The notes beneath the pieces are model-generated. The model saw only the letters and a list, made by a program, of their open reading frames with translations. It was not told where the DNA came from and ran no database searches. This document shows positions 1 through 64,000 of a DNA stretch of 64,000 bases, piece by piece. Origin of the DNA: an uncultured Ruminobacter sp. (lineage in GTDB: Bacteria; Pseudomonadota; Gammaproteobacteria; Enterobacterales; Succinivibrionaceae); contig CACYPY010000006.1 in the NCBI GenBank assembly GCA_902776415.1, positions 1 through 64,000 on the forward strand, given 5' to 3'. Every line of letters starts with the position of its first letter. The stretch's first letter is position 1. Made by a program: the position numbers and the translations under genes.

Positions 1-320
1 TATTTGTATTTTAAGGGATAAATTTTCAACGCGCCACAAAAAATCCTTAAAAATCAATGGTTTCTCACGTTTCTAACCTCAAGAGGTAGTATTTTGCCCT
101 CAAATCCTTATAAATCAATGGCTGAAGCCCTGTTTTCCGTTATTCTAAAAATATTTGTCAGGAGGTTAGCAAAAAGCAACAATACTGTTTTAAATATCGA
201 TTATATTAAAAAATTGAATATCCGAACGGATTTTTCATTCGCAAATGCTGTTTGGAGTGATTATTTCGTTATTAGAGCTTCATGAGTAATGACACTTATC
301 CTAAAAAAATTGGGGACTTA
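1..320. other. AT-rich gene-free left edge
   Basis: No coding region can be supported here. The only open frame, at about 94-285 on the plus strand, encodes 63 residues with no recognisable motif and no convincing ribosome binding site. The stretch lies just past the truncated end of the hsdM remnant and is much more AT-rich than the housekeeping DNA to the right, as expected of decayed accessory DNA. Confidence 0.5.
41..121 (+). repeat. pair of 20-bp direct repeats
   Basis: AAATCCTTAAAAATCAATGG at 41-60 recurs at 102-121 with a single mismatch (A to T at the tenth base). The unit starts are 61 bp apart and the DNA between them shows no shared sequence. Origin and function are unknown; it could be a trace of a recombination site or of an unrecognised short element. 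Confidence 0.7.
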
Positions 321-975
321 TCATGAAAATTGTGAATGTTTCAGACCATTTACCAAACTAATAATTTTCTCCCCCAATTTAGGTTTCATCATATTTACAG
401 CCATGTCAATGATGTGTCTAGATGTTCTGAACTGTCCGGATCCCCCACTTCCACACATATACTCATAAACATCACCCATGAGATCTGTTTTAGTGAAATT
501 CATTTCGTCATCAGAGAGTTTATCAACAACAGAAGTAAGTAAGCGCTCTTTATCATCAAATCCAAATGTATACTTCTTTGCATATACACCAAACTGACCA
601 ATTGCCTTATTGTTAGGGTCTTTGATGAATGGAATCACGTAGTTCTTTAATACGGTTGGCTAATTCTTTGCCATTCAGGTTTTTAAAATTTTTCCAACGA
701 AGATCTTCATACGGAATTTCAAATACAACACGTTCACGATCGTTATCAGACTCAATATACTTATAAATTCCTCTCTTGAATGTTAACTCACTGTCACGAG
801 GAGCAATTTGGAGTTTTGCGGCTTGTGCCTCCACTGCGTTTTGCTTATCATCAAGCATTTTAATAAACATAAGCGTGGTAAGCTGGTTCACTATTTCTGA
901 TGTCTGCGCCATATTTTCATTATAGAAGTCCTGCCATATGCTGTTTATTTTATTCTTTAAACTTCCGGTTATCAT
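321..975 (-). pseudogene. hsdM remnant, type I restriction-modification methyltransferase subunit
   Basis: The N-terminal part of a type I DNA methyltransferase (HsdM) is visible but broken twice. Residues 1 to about 110 (613-975) carry the HsdM N-terminal helical domain, including MAQTSEIVNQLTTLMFIKML. A one-base frameshift near 645 then moves the frame into 321-638, which continues with YVIPFIKDPNN, GDVYEYM and the typical FRTSRHIIDM stretch. The protein ends about ten residues later, before the S-adenosylmethionine-binding motif I and the NPPF-type catalytic motif of the family. No hsdS or hsdR gene lies in the window. It cannot make an active methyltransferase. Family assignment is good from the motif order; the cause of the truncation is not visible. 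Confidence 0.85.
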
Positions 976-33439: not shown

Positions 33440-35596
33440 TTACTTGCGTCCGGCGGAAACAATCACCACCTTGTCGTTGCCCTTCTTCCTCATAAAGGCA
33501 TAAGGGCTGGCGGAAAGCTTGGTATGAGTTCCTTCGGCAACAGCAGGATGATTGAGACGGAACTTGTTAAGCTTGCCCCAATGCCTGATCAAATCCTTAT
33601 ACTCGGGCTTGTCGAGATCCGCCCAGTTCATGTCGGAACGGAGAGACTGATCCACCACTCCGTCATCCTTCATCAGAGGACGTCCTGATTCATCACCATA
33701 GTAGATCTGAACCTGTCCCGGGAGCATCAGGAAGGAATTGGCAGTACGCTTCTGCAAATCAAAGTCCTGATAGTCCGCAAAGAACAGCTTGGTATCGTGA
33801 GATGAAATGTAGGACAGAATATTAAAGCCCTTCTGCTGAACGGACTTTGAGTACTTGGCATAAATACCGTCAGCCTCCTTCATACACTGAGCAGCTGCCA
33901 TGGATTCCTTCTGATAGTCAAAATTGAGGAGACTGTCAAAACCGTTGTCATACCAGAGATCCCTGGAAACACCGTGATCAAACACCTCGCCTACCATAAA
34001 GAAAGGAGTGTCATCGATCTTCTTGGAAGGGTTCTCGGCCTTCCATTCCTTAAGCGCTTTGGTGGCACTCTCCTTGAGCTGCTTCCAGGCATAAGGATCA
34101 ACATGCTTCACGGTATCGCAGCGGAATCCGTCAACACCGAATTTTCTGACATAATAGGTATGCCAGCTGACGAGGTAATCGACAATCGAGGCATTGGGCA
34201 AATCCACAGCCCTGGTATCCTTCTTGTTCTTAAAGAATTCCGGAAGCTTCACGGGCGTTCTCTTCTCTGTCTTGAAATCAGGAAGTCCGCCTACTGCCAT
34301 GTTCTGGTCGTCAACACCGGGCTCATCATATCCAGGAAGTCCGGCACGCACCCAGTCCGGTCCCCACCATTTCTTCCAGGCTTTGGTCTTATAGTTGATA
34401 ACACCGTTGATGCTGCCCCAGGTTGCATAAAGTCCCTTGGGCTTGTATTCTGACCAGTCAGCAGGGAGAGAATCAGGATCATTTACCAGCTCCTTAAGAC
34501 CGACATCCTGGAGATCCTTCAAAGTTGCATAGCCGGCATGATTCATTACCACATCCACAAGAATACGGATACCACGCTTATGGGCCTCATCAACAAATTT
34601 CTGGAATTCTTCTTCAGTGCCGAGATTCTTGTCAATATTGGTAAAATCCAAAGCCCAGTAACCGTGATAGCCGTAGAACGGGAAAGAACCTTCAGCACCA
34701 CCGCTTACAAAACCGTGAACCTGTTCAACTATAGGAGTAACCCATATGGCATTGACTCCCAAATCACGAAGGTAATCTAGTTTTTGGGTGATACCGGCAA
34801 AGTCACCGCCGTGCCAGGTACCGATTTCATTCTTGCCGTCCTTCTTTCTGCCATAGGAATTATCATTTGATTTGTTTCCGTTATAGAAGCGATCCGGAAG
34901 CATAAAATAAACATTGGCATTATCCCAGCTGAAAGGCGCCTGGGAGAAGGACTTTGCCTCCTCAAGAAGAAGAATACCCTCGCTTTCAGGAGCGGGAGTC
35001 ATGGTGACCTTTCCGCCCTTTACCACCGCAGTAGCACCGGAATAGGCATCACGAACCGTAGTTCCGTTGGGAAATGCCTTGCCAACGTTTGCTGTAACCG
35101 GACCGCCGTCCCATTTGTCACATGCAATCTGCGGAGGCTGTCTCTTGACCTCAACCTTCTTGGTACTTCTTAGCACCTTAACAGAGGGAACATCCTTGGT
35201 GTAGTCAAGGGTAAAATCATAGTTACCCTTGAGAACCACGTTAATGGTGAATTCATTCTTGGCACACTTGTCAAGCTGAGCAAGAGTTCCGAAGGCAAGA
35301 TTTGCCGAGGCGGCAGGGCCGAATTTTGTACCGCAGGTATCCTTGGCATCCGCAAGAACAATCTTATGCTGTCCTTTATCCATAAAGGCAGTGGCATGAT
35401 AGATATTGCTGGTATTTCCCAGCTTGAATTCGCTGTCGGCCCCCTGTGATTTTCCGTCAACCTTAACAAAAACCGGGGTAGTAAGTTTCCCGGTAACCGC
35501 TTTTGAAGCAGGAGATGAGGAAGCCGAATCGCTGCTACAACCGGCAACAGCTAGGATCATGGCTGCCGCCATGGCAGTAATACAATATTTATTCAT
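33440..35596 (-). CDS. malS: MalS-like alpha-amylase (GH13), predicted lipoprotein
   Basis: A 718-residue secreted amylase. The start at 35596 gives a signal peptide ending in LAVAGC, so the protein should be lipid-anchored at that Cys; the longer frame to 35665 spoils this and is rejected. Residues about 30-215 form beta-rich accessory domains, including one resembling an amylase C-terminal domain (GTTVRDAYSGATAVVKGGKV). The GH13 barrel follows and resembles E. coli MalS closely (NVYFMLPDRFYNG, NEIGTWHGGDFAG, RGIRILVDVVMNHAGYATL). Catalytic residues lie in DGFRCDTVKHV, MVGEVFDHG and SSHDT. It would cut maltodextrins and starch outside the cytoplasm. Confidence 0.9.
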   Translation of the reverse strand: MNKYCITAMAAAMILAVAGCSSDSASSSPASKAVTGKLTTPVFVKVDGKSQGADSEFKLGNTSNIYHATAFMDKGQHKIVLADAKDTCGTKFGPAASANLAFGTLAQLDKCAKNEFTINVVLKGNYDFTLDYTKDVPSVKVLRSTKKVEVKRQPPQIACDKWDGGPVTANVGKAFPNGTTVRDAYSGATAVVKGGKVTMTPAPESEGILLLEEAKSFSQAPFSWDNANVYFMLPDRFYNGNKSNDNSYGRKKDGKNEIGTWHGGDFAGITQKLDYLRDLGVNAIWVTPIVEQVHGFVSGGAEGSFPFYGYHGYWALDFTNIDKNLGTEEEFQKFVDEAHKRGIRILVDVVMNHAGYATLKDLQDVGLKELVNDPDSLPADWSEYKPKGLYATWGSINGVINYKTKAWKKWWGPDWVRAGLPGYDEPGVDDQNMAVGGLPDFKTEKRTPVKLPEFFKNKKDTRAVDLPNASIVDYLVSWHTYYVRKFGVDGFRCDTVKHVDPYAWKQLKESATKALKEWKAENPSKKIDDTPFFMVGEVFDHGVSRDLWYDNGFDSLLNFDYQKESMAAAQCMKEADGIYAKYSKSVQQKGFNILSYISSHDTKLFFADYQDFDLQKRTANSFLMLPGQVQIYYGDESGRPLMKDDGVVDQSLRSDMNWADLDKPEYKDLIRHWGKLNKFRLNHPAVAEGTHTKLSASPYAFMRKKGNDKVVIVSAGRK

Positions 35597-35837
35597 AGTT
35601 AAAACCGACCTCGAAAAGAAAAAGAACTGTGATAATGATATGACTTCAAAGATGGGGTCATACACAGTGACAGGGTTAATGAAAAATTATAAATAAAAGA
35701 GGAGTCGATAACCGAATACAAGAGGGAATGCAGTAACAAAAATGTGAAACAAACAGAAAGAAAGGGACAGTTTCAAATCCCTGATGGAGGCTCATTAGGA
35801 GAAAATTCATGTCCTCCGAAAAAGAAATGAGGCCGTA
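35597..35837. other. control region upstream of the MalS-like gene
   Basis: The stretch between the MalS-like start and the rpoA2 terminator. It must hold the amylase promoter, but I cannot pick one with confidence and see no clear MalT or CRP site. Confidence 0.4.
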
Positions 35838-35873
35838 TCAAAAAATAACCTGCACCGGTATAGACGGCACAGG
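35838..35873 (-). terminator. intrinsic terminator of rpoA2
   Basis: On the minus strand CCTGTGCCG pairs with CGGTGCAGG (two wobble pairs), then TTATTTTTT. It begins 40 bp after the rpoA2 stop. Confidence 0.75.
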
Positions 35874-35912
35874 CCATAATCAAACCCCTAATCGAGGAGA
35901 AACATCAGAAGA

Positions 35913-36962
35913 CTAATCCTTCTGATCCTCATCTTCCTGAGGCGGCCAGTTGTCGAGGCGCATGCCCAGAGACAGACCTTCCTTTGCAAGAACATCCTTG
36001 ATTTCAGTAAGAGATTTCTTACCGAGATTAGGGGTCTTAAGAAGCTCAACCTCAGTCTTCTGAACCAAATCACCAATATAATGAATTCCTTCAGCCTTAA
36101 GACAATTGGCAGATCGAACTGTAAGTTCAAGATCTTCAACGGTTTTAAGAAGCTTGGGATCAATCTTGGGTTCCTCAACAACCTTGGCAGTGGTTTCAGA
36201 TTCAGAATGAATGTCAATGAAAGTATTCAGCTGTTCATAAAAAATTGTGGAAGCTCTGCGAAGCGCCATCTGGGGAGAAATTGTTCCGTCTGTAGTCAGA
36301 TTAATGGTAAGTGACTCCAAATCATCACGACCATTAGGATCATCGTACTTGCTTACGGTATAAGCCACATTGACGACAGGACTGTAAGCAGCATCAACCA
36401 TAAGGCGTCCCACGAACCTTTCGTCCCCTTCAGGATGTGCCCGCAGGTCACCGCGCAGAAAACCACGGCCACGGTTAACATGAAGCTTCATTCTGAAAGG
36501 AATGGTTCTGCTGGTGATATGACAGATAACAAGATCCGGGTTATGAATTGTAACCCCTGCCGGACAATAAATATCGCCGGCAGTAATAGGCCCAACGTAA
36601 TCAGTTTTGGCGTTTGTGACACCATCGTCCTGAGCCAGAGGATCATTAACCCGTAACTGAAGAAGAGCATCATCTCTGGTAAGATTGTCAATGGACACGG
36701 CAATCTTCTTAAGATTCAGGAGAAGAATGAGAATATCTTCCTGCAATCCCTCTTTGGTAGTATATTCATGATTTACATCATTGATTTCACAGGAATATAT
36801 GGCGGATCCAGGCATGGAGGAAAGAAGTATACGCCTAAGAGCATTACCGAGAGTAAGACCGAAATTAGGTTCAAAAGGCTCAAGAACAATTTTTGACTGA
36901 GTATCAGAAATACTTTCAATCCTTGCTTCCTGAGGCTTAAAAAAATCTTTTACGAAGTCCAA
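35913..36962 (-). CDS. rpoA2: RNA polymerase alpha subunit, second copy
   Basis: A complete 349-residue alpha subunit, different from the copy at 37562-38560. The N-terminal domain has [15 protein letters not shown], which holds the two arginines that help contact beta, and it matches the E. coli sequence better here than the other copy does. About 12 extra residues lie near 106-121 ([14 protein letters not shown]). The C-terminal domain has [15 protein letters not shown] and [20 protein letters not shown], keeping the DNA- and activator-contact residues. The start is a TTG with GAGGAA 6 nt upstream. It lies past the rplQ terminator and has a candidate promoter, so it is probably a separate unit. 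The symbol rpoA2 is my label, used as for the two alpha genes of Francisella. Confidence 0.93.
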
Positions 36963-37120: not shown

Positions 37121-37537
37121 TTATTCAGCAGAGGGTGCCTCGGCAGCAGGTTCTTCAGCCTTGACATCTACAAGAGAGATGAAAGCCATCTGAGCCTGAT
37201 CTCCAGGACGAAGACCGCACTTTAAAACACGGGTATAACCGCCCTTGCCTTTAGACTCATCAGCTTCACGGGCAAGAACCCGCTTGGCAATGTCGTTAAA
37301 AAGTTTGGTAACAATCTCACGATCACGCAAAACTGCAAAAACATGACGACGGTTAGCAACCGAATCAACCTTGGCCTTGGTAATAAGAGGCTCAGCAAAG
37401 CGACGAAGCTCCTTAGCCTTCGGAAGAGTAGTTCTGATGGTTTCTCTTCTGAAAAGAGCTACAGTAAGCGAACGGAGCAATGCAGCTCTTGCACTGGTGT
37501 TGCGGCTCAACTGACGGCCGCTCATACGATGACGCAT
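37121..37537 (-). CDS. rplQ: 50S ribosomal protein L17
   Basis: 138 residues beginning [17 protein letters not shown], the typical L17 start, with [13 protein letters not shown] and GGYTRVLKC further on. An acidic Ala/Glu-rich tail ([12 protein letters not shown]) replaces the short end of E. coli L17 (127 residues). It is the last gene of the alpha operon, after rpoA. Here another rpoA follows it. Confidence 0.96.
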
Positions 37538-37561: not shown

Positions 37562-38560
37562 TTATGATTTGGCCTGCTGAGAAGCTGCAGCCCAGTTCTC
37601 AATACGCATACCGAGAGACAACCCTCGCTGAGCCAGAACATCCTTAATCTCATTAAGAGACTTACGACCTAAGTTCTTGGCTTTAAGAAGTTCAACTTCG
37701 GTACACTGAACCAAATCACCTATTAAGTGAATGGATTCTGCTTTAAGGCAGTTAGCCGAACGAACAGTAAGCTCAAGATCATCAACGGATCTGAGAAGAG
37801 CAGGATCCAAAACAGGAGCCTGTGTCTGTTCAACAGGTGCACTTACCTTAACGGCATCTAAATCTACAAAGGAAGATAGCTGTTCACGAAGTAACAGAGC
37901 GCCTTCCCTGATAGCTTCCTCAGGATCAATAACCCCGTTGGTTTCAACTTCAATCTCAAGGCCGTCAAGGTCAGTTCTCTGTTCGAGACGCGCTGACTGA
38001 ACCTCATAGGAAAAATACCTGATTGGAGTGTATGAAGCATCAAGGAGGATGGTACCGGGATCACGAGCTTCAGCCTGACGCTTGGGCGAATTGGCCGGAA
38101 CATAACCGGAACCCCTTTGAATTCTCAAAGTCATTTCTATGGAAGACTTTGAAGAATTCAAATGACAGATAACGTGACCAGGATTATAAACCTGAACATC
38201 ATCCGGCAACTTAATGTCACCTGCATAAACAGGTCCTGTACCGGACTTTACCAGGGAAACAACGACATCATCCTTGGTTTCATCCGTAATATTTACAGCA
38301 ACACCTTTAAGATTAAGAAGCACCTCCAGAATCTCTTCCTGAATATCGCTCTTAACACTATATTCGTGCTCTACACCTTCGATTTTGACCTGAGTGATGG
38401 CACAACCAGGAAGGGACATCAGAAGGACACGGCGAAGAGCCTGTCCTAAGGTATTGCCAAAACCGCGCTCCAACGGTTCAAGAGAAACGTGAGAGCGATT
38501 GATGCTTACTGGCGTAATCCCAACCTTTCTCGGTTTTAAAAAATCTGTTACAGAACCCAA
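37562..38560 (-). CDS. rpoA: RNA polymerase alpha subunit, alpha-operon copy
   Basis: A complete 332-residue alpha subunit at the standard place between rpsD and rplQ. The N-terminus ([13 protein letters not shown]) and [26 protein letters not shown] fit RpoA. Yet some normally constant spots differ: [15 protein letters not shown] replaces [15 protein letters not shown], and the loop before [10 protein letters not shown] is shorter. The C-terminal domain keeps [15 protein letters not shown] and [15 protein letters not shown]. The start is TTG with GAGGA about 9 nt before it. By hand the C-terminal domains of the two copies agree at 50 of 59 positions, while the N-terminal domains differ much more. 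Confidence 0.95.
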
Positions 38561-58404: not shown

Positions 58405-60516
58405 TTATGACAAAGGCAGCTCCGCCCAGATGGATACTGACTGCGGCAGTGCGTAAGAACTCTGTTCGACTCTGCCGTTATCAACATCGGGACCGCTTAC
58501 CACCTTGACCATGTCATCCACACCATTGACCGGGGCAGATTCCTTGGTACTGTTCATAACCACCTTGATTCTCTTCCAGGAATCACCTACCGCGGCACCA
58601 TTGATATTAACGATTACCACATGATCGGTGCTGTCCGGATCCAGAGTTACGTTACTAAAGATATCATCAGCAGTAGTCATATGGAATGCCGGATGCTCCT
58701 TTCTCATCTTGATAAATGCAGCATAGGCAGCACTCATCTCCTTCCAGTCTCCTGCCTTGAGATCCCACTTGAAGTCATTGGCTCCGGTAGTGGTGTTGTA
58801 GGTGTTGGCGATATCCTTGCCGGCAGCAGCCTTGGTACGGCCAAATTCCTCACCGCCATGAATAAAGGTGATACCCTGGCTTACAGCAATAATGGCATTG
58901 GCGTAACCCTGAAGAGTCTGCTTTTCTCTCAGGTGGGTTACACCGGCAGCCTCAATCTTGTCGCGGAGAGCCAGATTGTCATGCGCGGTAACATAGGAAA
59001 CCACTTGCTCCGGACTGGTATAGCCCTGAGCGGTCCAGACATCGGTACCCTTGGCATCCTTATGACGGGCACCACCGGTAACCCCCATGAAGACGCACTC
59101 TTTGTTTCCTGCAAGCGCATTATCGTTCTCATCGGTGCCGTTGCCGTCCCAGCCGTCATTCAATTTATCAAATATGAAGCCAAGCGCTTTACCGTCATCA
59201 CTGGAGCCCTTAAGACAGTTTCTGATTCTGTTGTTGAAGACACCCACATGAGCATCCGCAGACTGCATATGAATTCTGCCGGTACGTACCGGATTCTTGG
59301 TCTGCTTCTCAGAAGCATCATTGTCAGCAGCCCATGGTTCACCGTAGATAACCAGATTGGCATCAGGATGAGCCTTATTCAGATACTCACCCCAGTCGGA
59401 GAAGTCATTGATGGAGAATGCGCCGACCAGGTCAAGTCTGAAACCGTCAATATGGTATTCGGATACCCAGTAATCCATGGAGTCACGAATCATGGTCCAC
59501 ACCATATTCTCATCACCGTTAACGGTATTGCCGCATCCGGTAACATCGGTCTTGAGATAGTACTTGCTCGTAATATTCTCAAAAACGGATTTTTTCCAGG
59601 TGTGATTGTAAACCACATCCATGATTACCCGGATCCCGTTCTTGTGGAATTCGTTAATCATGGTCTTAACTTCATTGATCTTCCTGTTATAGTCAGCGGT
59701 GCCGAAAGCTGAAGAATACCGGGTCTCGGGAACATTGTAGTTCCAGGGATCATAGCCCCAGTTGTAGCAGCTGGAATCCTGAGAATCCACATCGGAACAG
59801 GTACCATAGTCATAAATAGGCTGGAGCTGTACATGAGTAATGCCCAGTTCCTTAAGGTGATCAATACCGGTGGTAACCCCCTTGTAGGTGGTTCCGGGCT
59901 GCACCATGCCGAGGTAACGGCCTCTCTTGTCCCTGTCAACTCCGGAAGTTTCATCGATGGTGAAATCGCGAACATGAACCTCATAAACAACAGAGTCAAC
60001 CCGGTTCTTCAGTTCGGGAGCGGTAGCCCAACCTCCTTCAGGTTCGGTCTTAGACATGTCCATAACGATGTTTGCGGTATTGTCAGTTCCATCGGAGGCA
60101 ATCATCTTGCCATACGGATCACGAACCGGACTTCCATTAACGTAGAACTGATATTCCTGTCCCGCAAGGTCCCCGTCTACAGATACCTCGTACACTGAGG
60201 TATAGCACTTAACGTTAGCAGGCTTCATAGGATAGTCAGTACCGCCAACATTTACAGAAACCTTGGAGGAATCCGGAGACCAGATGCGGAACACAGTCTT
60301 ATCAGGTGAGTAAATAGCACCCAGAGTCTCTTCCTGTTTTTCAAGACGGCAGCTCGGATCCTTTGCTACATGGGTCTTTTTAATGTTGTAGTTCGCGACA
60401 GAATCATTGTACTTGACATGAAGAACGGCAGTTGTCGAATTGGTTACCTTCACATTCTTGCCAACTGTAATCACTTCACCGTTAACAAATGGCTTGGCAT
60501 GATCTTCATCATTGTC
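58405..60516 (-). pseudogene. pullulanase, C-terminal catalytic part cut off by the IS element
   Basis: The 3' part (about 703 residues) of a GH13 pullulanase, a debranching enzyme for alpha-1,6 links. It has a CBM48-like N-terminal module (YSPDKTVFRIWSPDSSKVSV), the type I pullulanase box YNWGYDPWNYNVPE, then catalytic regions DGFRLDLVGAF, IYGEPWAAD and YVTAHDNL. The frame is open to the IS edge; the first in-frame start left is GTG 60474. It lacks the signal peptide, so any product would stay inside the cell. Joined to the piece at 62609-63313 it gives 938 residues in one frame. Confidence 0.9.
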
Positions 60517-60521
60517 TATCC

Positions 60522-62608
60522 CGCAAACTTCCCATTAATTGGGAATCCATGAGCAACATGTTTTATTTCCCAAAATTTTTGCGATCCCTTGTAACAAAAG
60601 GCTTGGATACTCCAGATTTCTGTTGACTTAAAAATTAAAACTTGGTATGATGTATTCCCATAAGGGGTTTCAAATTTCCAAGGTTTTAATTATGGGAAAA
60701 GTTGATAGAAATACGCATGATATGCCTGTTCCTGATTTTGCGTATACTGACCGCCATGACGGCCGTGTTTTCGTCAGAATCATTGACAGTAACGGAATGT
60801 ATCGCAAGAAAACTATCGGATACATGACAGTCAGTAATGCTGGCGGAGAACGGATGATCCCCAATCAGTATTTCATCGACAAATACCGTGATTTGTACAT
60901 GGAGTCCTACCCTGATGCGACTGTTCCGTTCCATGAGATAAGCATAGGGATGTATGCTCTGACTTTAGGGATTACAACTAATTCCGGATTGTATGACGAC
61001 CTCGTAAATGTTTACGGTCCGATCTTCGCAAATGGCATTTTGGACTATGCCATGTTCTCAATTATGCATCGCTGCAGCGCGACGCAGATTTTTGAAACGA
61101 GCATGGCCAGAGAAGTGCTGTTTGAGGACAAACTCCACTCTGATAACTGGTACTCTGATTTCTTTTCAAAGAAGCTAAACGAGGATAAGCATCATCAATT
61201 CCGGATAAAATGGGTGAACAGGCTGAAATCAAAAGGTCTGAAAAAGGTTTGGCTGGCTATAGACGGCTCCAACAATGATTGCGAGGCTCGAAGGACTTTC
61301 CTGACAAAGCACGGATTTCCGAAGTCTCACAATAAGAACAAAACCATTGTGGGCTATATGTATGCGGTTGATGCCAGCACAGGTCAGCCGGTAACCTATT
61401 TTGTTTACGATGGCAGCGTTCCGGACAGCCAGGCTTTTCAAAAAGTCGCAACATTTCTTGGAAGCTTTGATTTGGAAATAGAAGGGGTCATACTTGATCG
61501 CGGGTTTGCTGTGGAAAACGTCTTTAAGACCATTGAGGAGCACAAATGGAAATACGTGATCATGCTGCCTTCCGATACTCATGGGCATGTGCAAATGGCC
61601 CGGGAATTCGGTGAGACCATTCGCTGGAAATCCGAGTATATCATTGAGGATGATGCCCTTTTTGGGATCAGCGGAAACAAGAAGCTGTTCGGAATGCATG
61701 AACGCCGTTCCGATATTTGTTTGTACTATGACGGAGCCGGCGGAAGCATCAGGTCAATAAAACTCATTAAAAAAATTCAGGCCGCTGTGCGAAAGGCTAA
61801 ACTGGCTATATCCCAGCAAACAAAAGCTGCAATCCCCCAGGGACTTCAGAAGTACATTACCATTGACGGAGAAGGCCAGGAACGAAAGATTACTGTTCAT
61901 TATCAGGATTGGGATAAATCAATGGCTTCTCATGGGTTCTTTTCTCTGGCTGTATCTGAGGGAATTGATCCATCCCGGGCCAACAGACTTTACAGCATGA
62001 GAAATGTTTCTGAGATACAGTATTCGATCCTGAAATCACATGAGGGCGGTGGTGTATCAAGGGTTCACAGCACTGAAGGAATATACAGCAAGTTTGCCAC
62101 GGCATTTGTTGCAAGTCTGATCAGATACGAGATCGAAACGGCATGCCAGCAATTGGAGCTGGACACCAATCCGATGATCCAGAACATGGAGCAGGTGATC
62201 CTGCTGTATACAGCAGAGGCACAATACGAATCTGTAAGGAATCTGACTGCTGAAGCAAAAGCGTTACTTGGTAAATTCAGCATAGATCAGGATACTTTGG
62301 AACGATTGGCTATCAAGTTTAATGACAGAAGCAAAACAGACTCAAAAAATCCGGTCAGAGCTATCCCTGAAAGTGGCGCACCGGTTATTCGCAGTAATTC
62401 TCACATACATGGAAAACCTGCAGCCAAAAAAGAACACAAGGATTCAGATTCTTCGGATGACGGCGCCAAAAAAGAGAAATCGAAAGGTGGCAGACCAAAG
62501 GGAAAAAAGGATTCTAAACCACGAAAAGGACGTTCCGATAAGGGTAAGTCCAGAGGTAGCTACAAGAAAAATAAAAACTAAAAATTCCCAATTTTTAGGA
62601 AGTTTGCG
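60522..62608 (+). mobile_element. IS element of the IS4/IS1634 group, 2,087 bp
   Basis: The ends are inverted repeats: the left end reads CGCAAACTTCC, four bases, AATTGGGAA, and the right end read inward is CGCAAACTTCC, four other bases, AATTGGGAA. TATCC at 60517-60521 and 62609-62613 is a 5-bp target duplication. A single transposase gene fills the element. The identical duplications and intact gene suggest a recent insertion. Confidence 0.93.
60692..62581 (+). CDS. DDE transposase, IS4/IS1634 type
   Basis: A 629-residue transposase. The first catalytic Asp is probably in VWLAIDGSNND, the second in EGVILDRGFAVENV, and the Glu in YSMRNVSEIQYSILK, which fits the YREK signature (Y, 2, R, 3, E, 6, K) of the IS4 and IS1634 families exactly. 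The C-terminal 70 residues are very Lys/Ser/Gly-rich. ATG 60692 has AAGG 8 nt upstream; a longer frame from 60647 has no such site. No frameshift or stop is seen, so it looks active. The IS1634 family is my best guess from length and signature. Confidence 0.85.
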   Translation: MGKVDRNTHDMPVPDFAYTDRHDGRVFVRIIDSNGMYRKKTIGYMTVSNAGGERMIPNQYFIDKYRDLYMESYPDATVPFHEISIGMYALTLGITTNSGLYDDLVNVYGPIFANGILDYAMFSIMHRCSATQIFETSMAREVLFEDKLHSDNWYSDFFSKKLNEDKHHQFRIKWVNRLKSKGLKKVWLAIDGSNNDCEARRTFLTKHGFPKSHNKNKTIVGYMYAVDASTGQPVTYFVYDGSVPDSQAFQKVATFLGSFDLEIEGVILDRGFAVENVFKTIEEHKWKYVIMLPSDTHGHVQMAREFGETIRWKSEYIIEDDALFGISGNKKLFGMHERRSDICLYYDGAGGSIRSIKLIKKIQAAVRKAKLAISQQTKAAIPQGLQKYITIDGEGQERKITVHYQDWDKSMASHGFFSLAVSEGIDPSRANRLYSMRNVSEIQYSILKSHEGGGVSRVHSTEGIYSKFATAFVASLIRYEIETACQQLELDTNPMIQNMEQVILLYTAEAQYESVRNLTAEAKALLGKFSIDQDTLERLAIKFNDRSKTDSKNPVRAIPESGAPVIRSNSHIHGKPAAKKEHKDSDSSDDGAKKEKSKGGRPKGKKDSKPRKGRSDKGKSRGSYKKNKN

Positions 62609-63313
62609 TATCCAGTAAGTACCTTCAGACTGAGAAGAAACTCCGGCACCCTTCATAAGTAAAGCAACATCTACTGAGGAAGTGTTATCATCCCCTTCAA
62701 TCTCGGCAATCGCAATGTCAGCTCCTGAAGCTGCAAGTTTACCGTCATAGAATATATAAGCCTCATCGACTACAGGCTTGTCCTCAAGTCCCTCAACACT
62801 GACGCCGCATTCACTGGCAGCAACAAAAGAACCGAAGCCCTCTGAGGTGAGATAAAGACATGGCTTGTCCTGAGTGTAAACATTGCCGTCTCCGGTCTGC
62901 TTACCGTCACCATTATTGCTGACAATGACATTATAGCCTTCGATGGATGCAGGGGGCTGATACCAGTGAATCTGAGCAACACACTGTTCTACCAGATTTG
63001 CGGTAAACTCCTCACCAGGCCAGGCAGCATCGGGGCCAAGGATGTTACCTTCATCGTTCCAAATCCAGGCGGCAAGTCTGTCATAGAAATCTCCTCTTAC
63101 AATGAGAGTTCCCTGTGCCACAGAACATTCGGGCTTGAGTTCCACTGCAACATATACATGATCATTATCAACCCGGCCGGTATCCTGAATCCAGTTTTCA
63201 GTAGACGGGGTACCACCACCGCCGCCGCCACCGCCACCGCCACCGGCAGTCAGTGCAACTGAAAAAACGGCAGCGGAAACTGCCATTCCAAGTTTATTTC
63301 TTCTTATTGTCAT
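62609..63313 (-). pseudogene. pullulanase, N-terminal secretion and starch-binding part cut off by the IS element
   Basis: The first 235 residues of the broken pullulanase. A signal sequence (about 1-26, ending VALTA) is followed by 11 glycines where a lipobox Cys would be expected. Residues about 50-150 resemble a CBM26-type starch-binding module (AAWIWNDEGNI, DAAWPGEEF, SNNGDGKQTGD). At the IS edge the frame runs on for 54 residues into IS DNA and stops at 62444. The product might be exported but has no catalytic domain. Confidence 0.88.
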
Positions 63314-63594: not shown

Positions 63595-64000
63595 TTAGCG
63601 CTTAAGCTCGAGGAGGATCAGATCCTTGGTTCCGGAGAGGCTTACCTTGCCGCCGGAAACAGTGCCTGTAGCTCCTGAGTAGCCGTCCTGAAGCTCGGTG
63701 CCGTCCTCGAAGCAGCCGGAAACATCAACGCTGGAAGCGGAACCCACATGGATTACCACTGCATTGTCAATGCCCTGACCGTCGTTATAGGTACGGCAGA
63801 GAGAACCGTCGCTGAGTTCTGTCTGCTTGCCGGCGCCTACAGCCGGGTTACGGAAGCGGAACTGACCAACCTTCTGCCAGTGAGCCAGGGAGGCATCAGA
63901 GGAGAACGAGGTGCTCAGAGTATCAACATTGGCTGCCCACTGAGCCTGACTGGAAATGTCAGACGGGAAGTTCATGTCGGAACGGGTTCCGTGCTCGGCA
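63595..64000 (-). CDS. alpha-amylase (GH13), C-terminal part, continues beyond the window
   Basis: The frame is open to the window edge (AEHGTRSDMNFPSD) and shows the last 135 residues. RSDMN matches RSDMNWADL after the barrel of the MalS-like amylase at 33440, so this is the end of a GH13 barrel plus a C-terminal beta domain. That domain contains DGTELQDGYSGATGTVSGGK, closely like a domain near the N-terminus of the MalS-like protein. The start, signal and catalytic residues lie outside. It is probably exported. Confidence 0.85.
   Translation of the reverse strand, partial: AEHGTRSDMNFPSDISSQAQWAANVDTLSTSFSSDASLAHWQKVGQFRFRNPAVGAGKQTELSDGSLCRTYNDGQGIDNAVVIHVGSASSVDVSGCFEDGTELQDGYSGATGTVSGGKVSLSGTKDLILLELKR

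Follow-up and report, generated by a model that had tools for sequence, protein, structure and literature searches.

Circular permutation is uncommon in natural proteins, and MalS of Escherichia coli is presented as the sole such case among GH13 enzymes in its structural paper (PMC10223318). The structure, solved in 2023 (An et al., PMC10223318), has a domain C assembled from residues 120-180 and 646-676, with the domains following one another in the order C-A-B-A-C, and section 2.1 of that paper places a C121-C537 disulfide in the crystal. The permutation is repeated in an editorial (PMC10647339). PMC10223318 states that domain permutation including domain C is unreported in other GH13 enzymes, raises the possibility that MalS took a path unlike that of the other GH13_19 amylases, and sets the fold against the distant neopullulanase and cyclomaltodextrinase; the name Amy4 does not occur in it.

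According to PMC10826348, subfamily GH13_19 is shared by R. bromii and also includes an amylase of Clostridium butyricum that is extracellular and carries CBM25/26 modules. The R. bromii member would be Amy4, whose architecture is given as SP GH13 CBM26 CBM26 Coh Doc (PMC5814915, Table 1), and these enzymes would be unpermuted. A literature search of incomplete coverage found no paper comparing MalS with unpermuted close relatives, and none describing the PDB structures of Amy4 or of a related Klebsiella amylase.

We have analysed a stretch of 64,000 nucleotides from an uncultured Ruminobacter sp. (the window), which contains a complete amylase gene and, at its right edge, the last part of the gene for a second amylase. 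We conclude that the complete gene is a typical representative of an enzyme type that is unusual but already known, the MalS-type GH13 subfamily 19 alpha-amylases; that it encodes such an enzyme with a circularly permuted domain C is, taken as a whole, an explanation that we hold with very little doubt. The circular permutation of MalS was already known, and what is added here is an unpermuted paralogue, the cut site, a probable single origin and a pair of cysteines invariant in the permuted forms. Relatives of ordinary domain order that are about 43% identical, including the paralogue in the same genome, allow the event to be placed on a tree and make the cut site visible, and they also give matched pairs for work on stability and folding.

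Gene and domain organisation

The features of the two genes, with positions in the window except for the last line, are as follows.

33440..35596, minus strand: malS-type alpha-amylase gene with circularly permuted domain C; open reading frame of 718 aa plus stop
35537..35596, minus strand: signal peptide with lipobox-like LAVAGC (Cys20), read from the sequence
35147..35488, minus strand: N domain, residues ~37-150, from strands in the model
34955..35122, minus strand: C2, the last five strands of domain C, residues 159-214, N-terminal to the barrel (paralogue alignment, C2 HMM, model strands 167-213, 8IM8 alignment from residue 120)
35120..35122, minus strand: Cys159, aligned with MalS C121 and predicted partner of Cys571 in the A-C disulfide
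33530..34939, minus strand: domains A and B, the catalytic (beta/alpha)8 barrel, residues 220-689 (Pfam)
33884..33886, minus strand: Cys571, by alignment the equivalent of MalS C537, the other half of the predicted A-C disulfide
33443..33529, minus strand: C1, the first three strands of domain C, residues 690-718, at the C terminus (paralogue alignment; model strands 690-696, 699-705 and 708-714)
63742..63822, minus strand: C1 of the right-edge amylase (alignment with the window enzyme)
63598..63741, minus strand: C2 of the right-edge amylase in its ordinary place directly after C1 (alignment, C2 HMM)
L013 3596-9019, minus strand: the whole right-edge amylase gene, which runs past the window edge

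The 718-residue window amylase has the domain order (N domain)-C2-A-B-A-C1. It matches Pfam Alpha-amylase at 1e-45 and passes the NCBIfam model NF007058 with 907 bits against a cutoff of 897, scoring below the cutoffs of the other nine PRK09505 models. NF007058 belongs to the PRK09505 group, and PRK09505 stands for malS. In a sequence search of the PDB the best match is the Klebsiella maltohexaose-producing amylase (1.9e-184), and E. coli MalS is also among the best.

The residues D494, E537 and D601 are identical in all 82 permuted and all 71 unpermuted sequences compared. The permuted set pools the named loci with those of the further genome samples described below, species shared by the two being kept, and 81 of its 82 members are distinct in their last 560 residues. 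As in GH13 enzymes generally, these three residues are the catalytic triad, with D494 the nucleophile and E537 the acid/base. As the triad is intact, the enzyme should cut alpha-1,4-glucans like MalS, and it may share the maltohexaose initial product and the Ca2+ binding of the MalS type. Its LAVAGC sequence, which we liken to a lipobox motif, suggests that the enzyme is probably a lipoprotein.

The right-edge amylase has its last 134 codons inside the window, and the whole gene encodes 1807 residues in the host genome. Its barrel parts are 43% identical to those of the window enzyme. C1 and C2 lie contiguously, directly behind the barrel, which makes it an unpermuted enzyme of the Amy4-like type; the C2 HMM finds C2 at residues 1757-1806 of 1807 (2.4e-19). 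An orthologue in Succinimonas amylolytica (L015) is 92% identical to it.

The two halves of domain C

The earlier note on this DNA had claimed that a stretch found ahead of the barrel in one enzyme has a homologue behind the barrel in another enzyme of the genome, and this proves to be correct. The first, GTTVRDAYSGATAVVKGGKV, forms residues 178-197 of the 718-residue protein (35006-35065, minus strand), ahead of a barrel that starts at about residue 220; the second, DGTELQDGYSGATGTVSGGK, lies at 63646-63705 on the minus strand, near the end of the right-edge amylase and behind its barrel. The local alignment of C2 with the end of the right-edge domain C covers 49 columns and scores 89, a value that none of 5000 shuffles reached (mean 25.4, SD 4.7, maximum 58). 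The further claim, that the window enzyme carries an amylase C-terminal-type domain on its N-terminal side, holds for C2, the last five strands, and fails for C1, which is still C-terminal.

The rear half is homologous too. Aligned with the stretch that directly precedes C2 in the right-edge amylase, the final 47 residues of the window enzyme score 75, again unmatched in 5000 shuffles. Set against the paralogue's domain C, the halves score 140 in the rotated order C1+C2, compared with 89 in their native order, and in the rotated alignment the two complementary halves meet at one loop. The pairwise alignment of the proteins, in which two end residues of the window protein were set at the far end by the aligner, shows the window protein coming to an end as domain C of the right-edge protein passes into its second half.

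Could two short beta motifs of different fold have come to resemble one another by chance or convergence? Strands of a beta-sandwich with SG/GG turns are compositionally simple, and Pfam names no domain above cutoff in either the window C2 or the right-edge C2. The probability of such a likeness is nevertheless negligible in view of the shuffles, of the end-to-end alignment with the MalS crystal structure described below, and of the C2 HMM, whose E-values lie between 9.6e-15 and 1.1e-26 for the 81 proteins holding C2, on which it was trained.

Structure models

Two AlphaFold2 models were built. The first is of the window enzyme, from a 17-row alignment that includes 16 permuted relatives; the second is of the barrel and domain C of L015, which stands for the right-edge enzyme, from 20 rows that include 19 unpermuted relatives. 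Their mean pLDDT values, 72.8 and 73.4 respectively, indicate middling confidence; the C-domain strands of both lie in ten-residue blocks at pLDDT 81 or more. The earlier note had named different predicted folds as the outcome that would speak against its comparison, and different folds are not what the models give: the window model has five strands (167-213) ahead of the barrel and three (690-714) behind it, and the L015 model has the barrel, then three strands (512-539), then five (544-586).

The models were compared each with PDB structures, not one upon the other, by VIA-align, which follows chain order and reports the first and last aligned residue only. Residues 158..718 of the window model align with chain residues 120..676 of MalS (8IM8; Z 36.5, rmsd 3.2, 525 aligned) and with the same range of 9US3, the Klebsiella enzyme, whereas the match to the unpermuted Amy4 structure 9QF3 is confined to 219..718 (Z 27.1, rmsd 3.2, 449 aligned). 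For the L015 model the match to 9QF3 extends from 17 to 587 (Z 33.2, rmsd 3.1, 523 aligned), whereas against 8IM8 it stops at 543 (Z 29.9, rmsd 5.2, 483 aligned); with many other GH13 structures the model aligns to its last residues. Three distant, unpermuted structures among the 50 matches listed (7jjn, 9fz2 and 7jjt) start at residues 179-183 of the window model, inside C2, the output giving their end points and not the parts matched between. A profile of unpermuted relatives covers positions 2-558 on 9QF3 and 3-501 only on 8IM8. Domain C is cut between its strands 3 and 4.

Distribution of the two forms

The named loci number 79 and come from the best 80 of 162 relatives as ranked by an unpermuted query, a sample in which rarer forms may have been missed. 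With a second copy at one locus and the two enzymes of this genome they make 82 proteins, in which, for this best 80 of 162, the C2 HMM places C2 on the N-terminal side of the barrel in 24 and on the C-terminal side in 57, one protein at a contig end being without C2. Together with 29 loci of a family survey and E. coli malS there are 112 proteins (named loci still the best 80 of 162): 39 have C2 on the N-terminal side, 72 on the C-terminal side, and one is cut by the contig end. A further 43 loci from samples of the order and the phylum all have C2 on the N-terminal side; these are the best matches to a permuted query and are uninformative on proportions.

Among the named loci (best 80 of 162), the permuted form occurs in Vibrio, Pasteurellaceae, Pseudomonas, Stutzerimonas, Marinobacter and Aeromonas. 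The unpermuted form occurs, among others and within the same best 80 of 162, in Paenibacillus, Clostridium, Ruminococcus, Lachnospiraceae and a Treponema, and also in a fusobacterium, Psychromonas, Agarivorans and Succinimonas. At the level of phyla the permuted loci in this best 80 of 162 belong to Pseudomonadota only, and the unpermuted ones to Bacillota, Spirochaetota, Fusobacteriota and Pseudomonadota. All of the permuted named loci are from what we take to be genera or families of Gammaproteobacteria.

Of 56 genomes sampled from the window's own family, matches at E <= 1e-40 occur in 28; ten of these 28 hold both forms, five only the permuted and 13 only the unpermuted one, matches not fetched as loci being classed by query range alone. 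Seven genomes of the family carry both forms on one contig, 23-34 kb apart. Matches were found in 60 of 197 genomes of the order sample and 18 of 398 of the phylum sample. The class-wide sample gave matches at E <= 1e-60 in one of 369 genomes, these being this genome's own; it is near-empty probably because the window's order is represented in its listing by just three further genomes.

These surveys bear on how C2 came to lie ahead of the barrel. The earlier note had read the arrangement as domain shuffling, in which a C-type beta module, whole or partial, would be pasted in front independently of the C-terminal domain, and it has in its favour that the same sequence module stands ahead of the barrel in one gene of this genome and behind it in another. 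In all 82 permuted sequences, however, C2 occurs once per protein, in front, and the C1 match is followed by only 0-4 residues; together these two features imply circular permutation. C2 is joined to the barrel by 4-9 residues in 81 of the 82 and by 32 in the remaining one. An intermediate with C2 on both sides was not found in any of the 112 proteins, of which one is undecidable at its contig end and 111 are classed, nor in any of the 43 further loci. With the halves meeting at one loop in the rotated alignment, we judge the pasting of a module to be very unlikely. Domain C is split and rotated; it has undergone a circular permutation within itself and was not moved whole. For annotation, the permutation explains both a Pfam scan that finds the barrel only and the presence of a C-domain motif at the front of the protein.

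Conserved cysteines and the N domain

Cys159 and Cys571 are both Cys in 82 of 82 permuted sequences, and by analogy with the MalS pair they are predicted to form a disulfide in the window protein. The Cys159 column is a gap in all 71 unpermuted sequences. The Cys571 column is not unique to the permuted forms, being Cys in 20 of the 71 unpermuted sequences as well (the right-edge enzyme, L015-L018 and L108-L122). The same 20 carry a different Cys in C2, and those of them that are in the tree form one clade (100). A bond between barrel and domain C may have arisen twice, in different ways.

The N domain, a beta domain in the model, sits where a CBM69-like domain has been proposed in E. coli MalS, and no Pfam family reaches its cutoff there. 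Three of the 82 permuted enzymes (L165, L090 and L163) have 48-82 residues ahead of C2, counted from the preceding stop codon. This is too few for a signal peptide and an N domain, implying that the permutation is independent of the N domain. On contig C15 of the host genome (L014 1975-2433, plus strand) there is a stand-alone, lipoprotein-like reading frame of 152 residues that matches residues 2-141 of the window amylase, signal region included (29% identity, 7.1e-7). Pfam names no family in it; it is possibly a free starch-binding N domain.

Phylogeny and direction of change

A tree was built on the barrel alone, without domain C, from 69 rows (21 permuted, 48 unpermuted). The rows had been thinned for likeness from 110 to 93 and then to 69, the long-branched L036 and L040 also being left out of the 69; neither L037, in which a contig end removes C2, nor L048_3, a second copy truncated at its 5' end, entered the trees or one of the cysteine counts. 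Permuted and unpermuted rows are parted by a single branch with a support of 100/100, present in all 200 bootstrap trees checked. This branch runs across taxa, so the window and right-edge enzymes are old paralogues and not recent donor and recipient; an origin of the permuted gene by recent permutation of the neighbouring paralogue was considered and is rejected on the same ground. Nor did the rearrangement take place between these two genes within this genome, the permutation having been described for MalS itself (PMC10223318). The permutation is instead old and probably single.

Which order came first? The unrooted tree is silent on direction. Rooting with an outgroup of five other GH13 proteins of the same genome, all on very long branches, gave a support of 71 at the root and 63 for the permuted group, which still lies on one side of the branch, and direction is not argued from this weakly supported rooting. 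The alternative is a permuted ancestor, with contiguous order restored in the Amy4-like enzymes. To our knowledge, however, other GH13 enzymes have a contiguous domain C, and the permuted order is therefore most likely derived, in a single switch. The alignment of the unpermuted L015 model to its last residues with many GH13 structures argues the same way, as does the occurrence of permuted named loci (best 80 of 162) in Pseudomonadota only, compared with four phyla for the unpermuted ones. Domain permutation including domain C is, moreover, unreported in other GH13 enzymes according to PMC10223318. We regard the reverse direction as extremely unlikely.

Taking the permuted order as derived, the change can be pictured as follows. 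An Amy4-like ancestor would have had the order A-B-A-C1-C2. In the line leading to MalS, the end of C2, formerly the C terminus, would have become connected through a short linker to what had been the start of the barrel, and the chain would have opened at the loop that separates strands 3 and 4 of domain C, giving new termini there. C2, now ahead of the barrel, would pack in cis against C1 and so rebuild the same eight-stranded domain, with the Cys159-Cys571 disulfide tying the new front segment to the barrel. As no intermediate, such as a duplicated or fused gene, was found among the 112 proteins and the 43 further loci, we infer the route: an unpermuted gene may have been duplicated in tandem, the copies fused and both ends then trimmed; the event would have taken place once, in an ancestor of the gammaproteobacterial forms.

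We lean towards a wider reading, in which the Amy4-like unpermuted enzymes are the sisters of the MalS line and a single permutation, confined to Gammaproteobacteria, was locked by a cysteine pair present in all permuted forms and did not need the N domain. If this is true, genomes with both forms offer natural matched pairs for the effects of permuting domain C.

Neighbouring genes

The RNA polymerase alpha subunit is encoded twice in the window, by full-length genes at 35913-36962 and 37562-38560 on the minus strand, which are 45% identical and both above the cutoff of rpoA models, with rplQ between them (37121-37537). Among 54 genomes of the family, alpha-subunit matches at E <= 1e-20 number two in 42, one in eight and none in four, some of these four being incomplete genomes. 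A narrow literature search on paired alpha-subunit genes found no paper. In eight genomes, namely this one (33440-36962, minus strand, in the window) and G396, G389, G391, G392, G393, G394 and G423, the second alpha-subunit gene is followed downstream, on its own strand, by the permuted amylase gene, with 179-1191 bases between the matches. The amylase beside the second alpha-subunit gene is thus an odd, conserved neighbourhood.

Towards the right edge, an IS1634-like transposase gene at 60647-62581 on the plus strand (NF033559, 92.6 bits, under the cutoff of 100) has a short inverted end on each side, one near 60522 and the other near 62608. It stands between a CBM26-like start at 62444-63313 on the minus strand, under the Pfam cutoff, and a remainder with CBM48 and amylase at 58405-60474 on the minus strand, so that an extracellular pullulanase-type gene (58405-63313) appears, from sequence, to have been interrupted by the IS1634-like element.

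Comparison with known systems

GH70 glucansucrases are, like the window enzyme, alpha-glucan enzymes with a circular permutation and are related to GH13. In GH70, however, it is the barrel that is permuted (PMC11046441), whereas the window enzyme has its barrel in ordinary order and its domain C split. The GH70 domain C is one continuous stretch according to PMC10223318, and is formed by the N- and C-termini in the wording of PMC11046441. An identity of the window enzyme with GH70 was rejected, its barrel being in ordinary order and aligning with unpermuted 9QF3 over 219..718.

Among unpermuted enzymes of solved structure, R. bromii Amy4 (9QF3) is the closest relative of the window barrel (2.4e-118). 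It differs from the window enzyme in having a contiguous domain C behind the barrel, and is a full-length match to the type of the right-edge paralogue. The Klebsiella maltohexaose-producing amylase (9US3-9US6) has the same permuted order as the window enzyme. E. coli MalS (8IM8, GH13_19) shares with it the split domain C, the order C-A-B-A-C and the same cysteine pair, and the two are 45% identical over the aligned part, with a diverged N domain; MalS is described as periplasmic, whereas the window enzyme is a probable lipoprotein.
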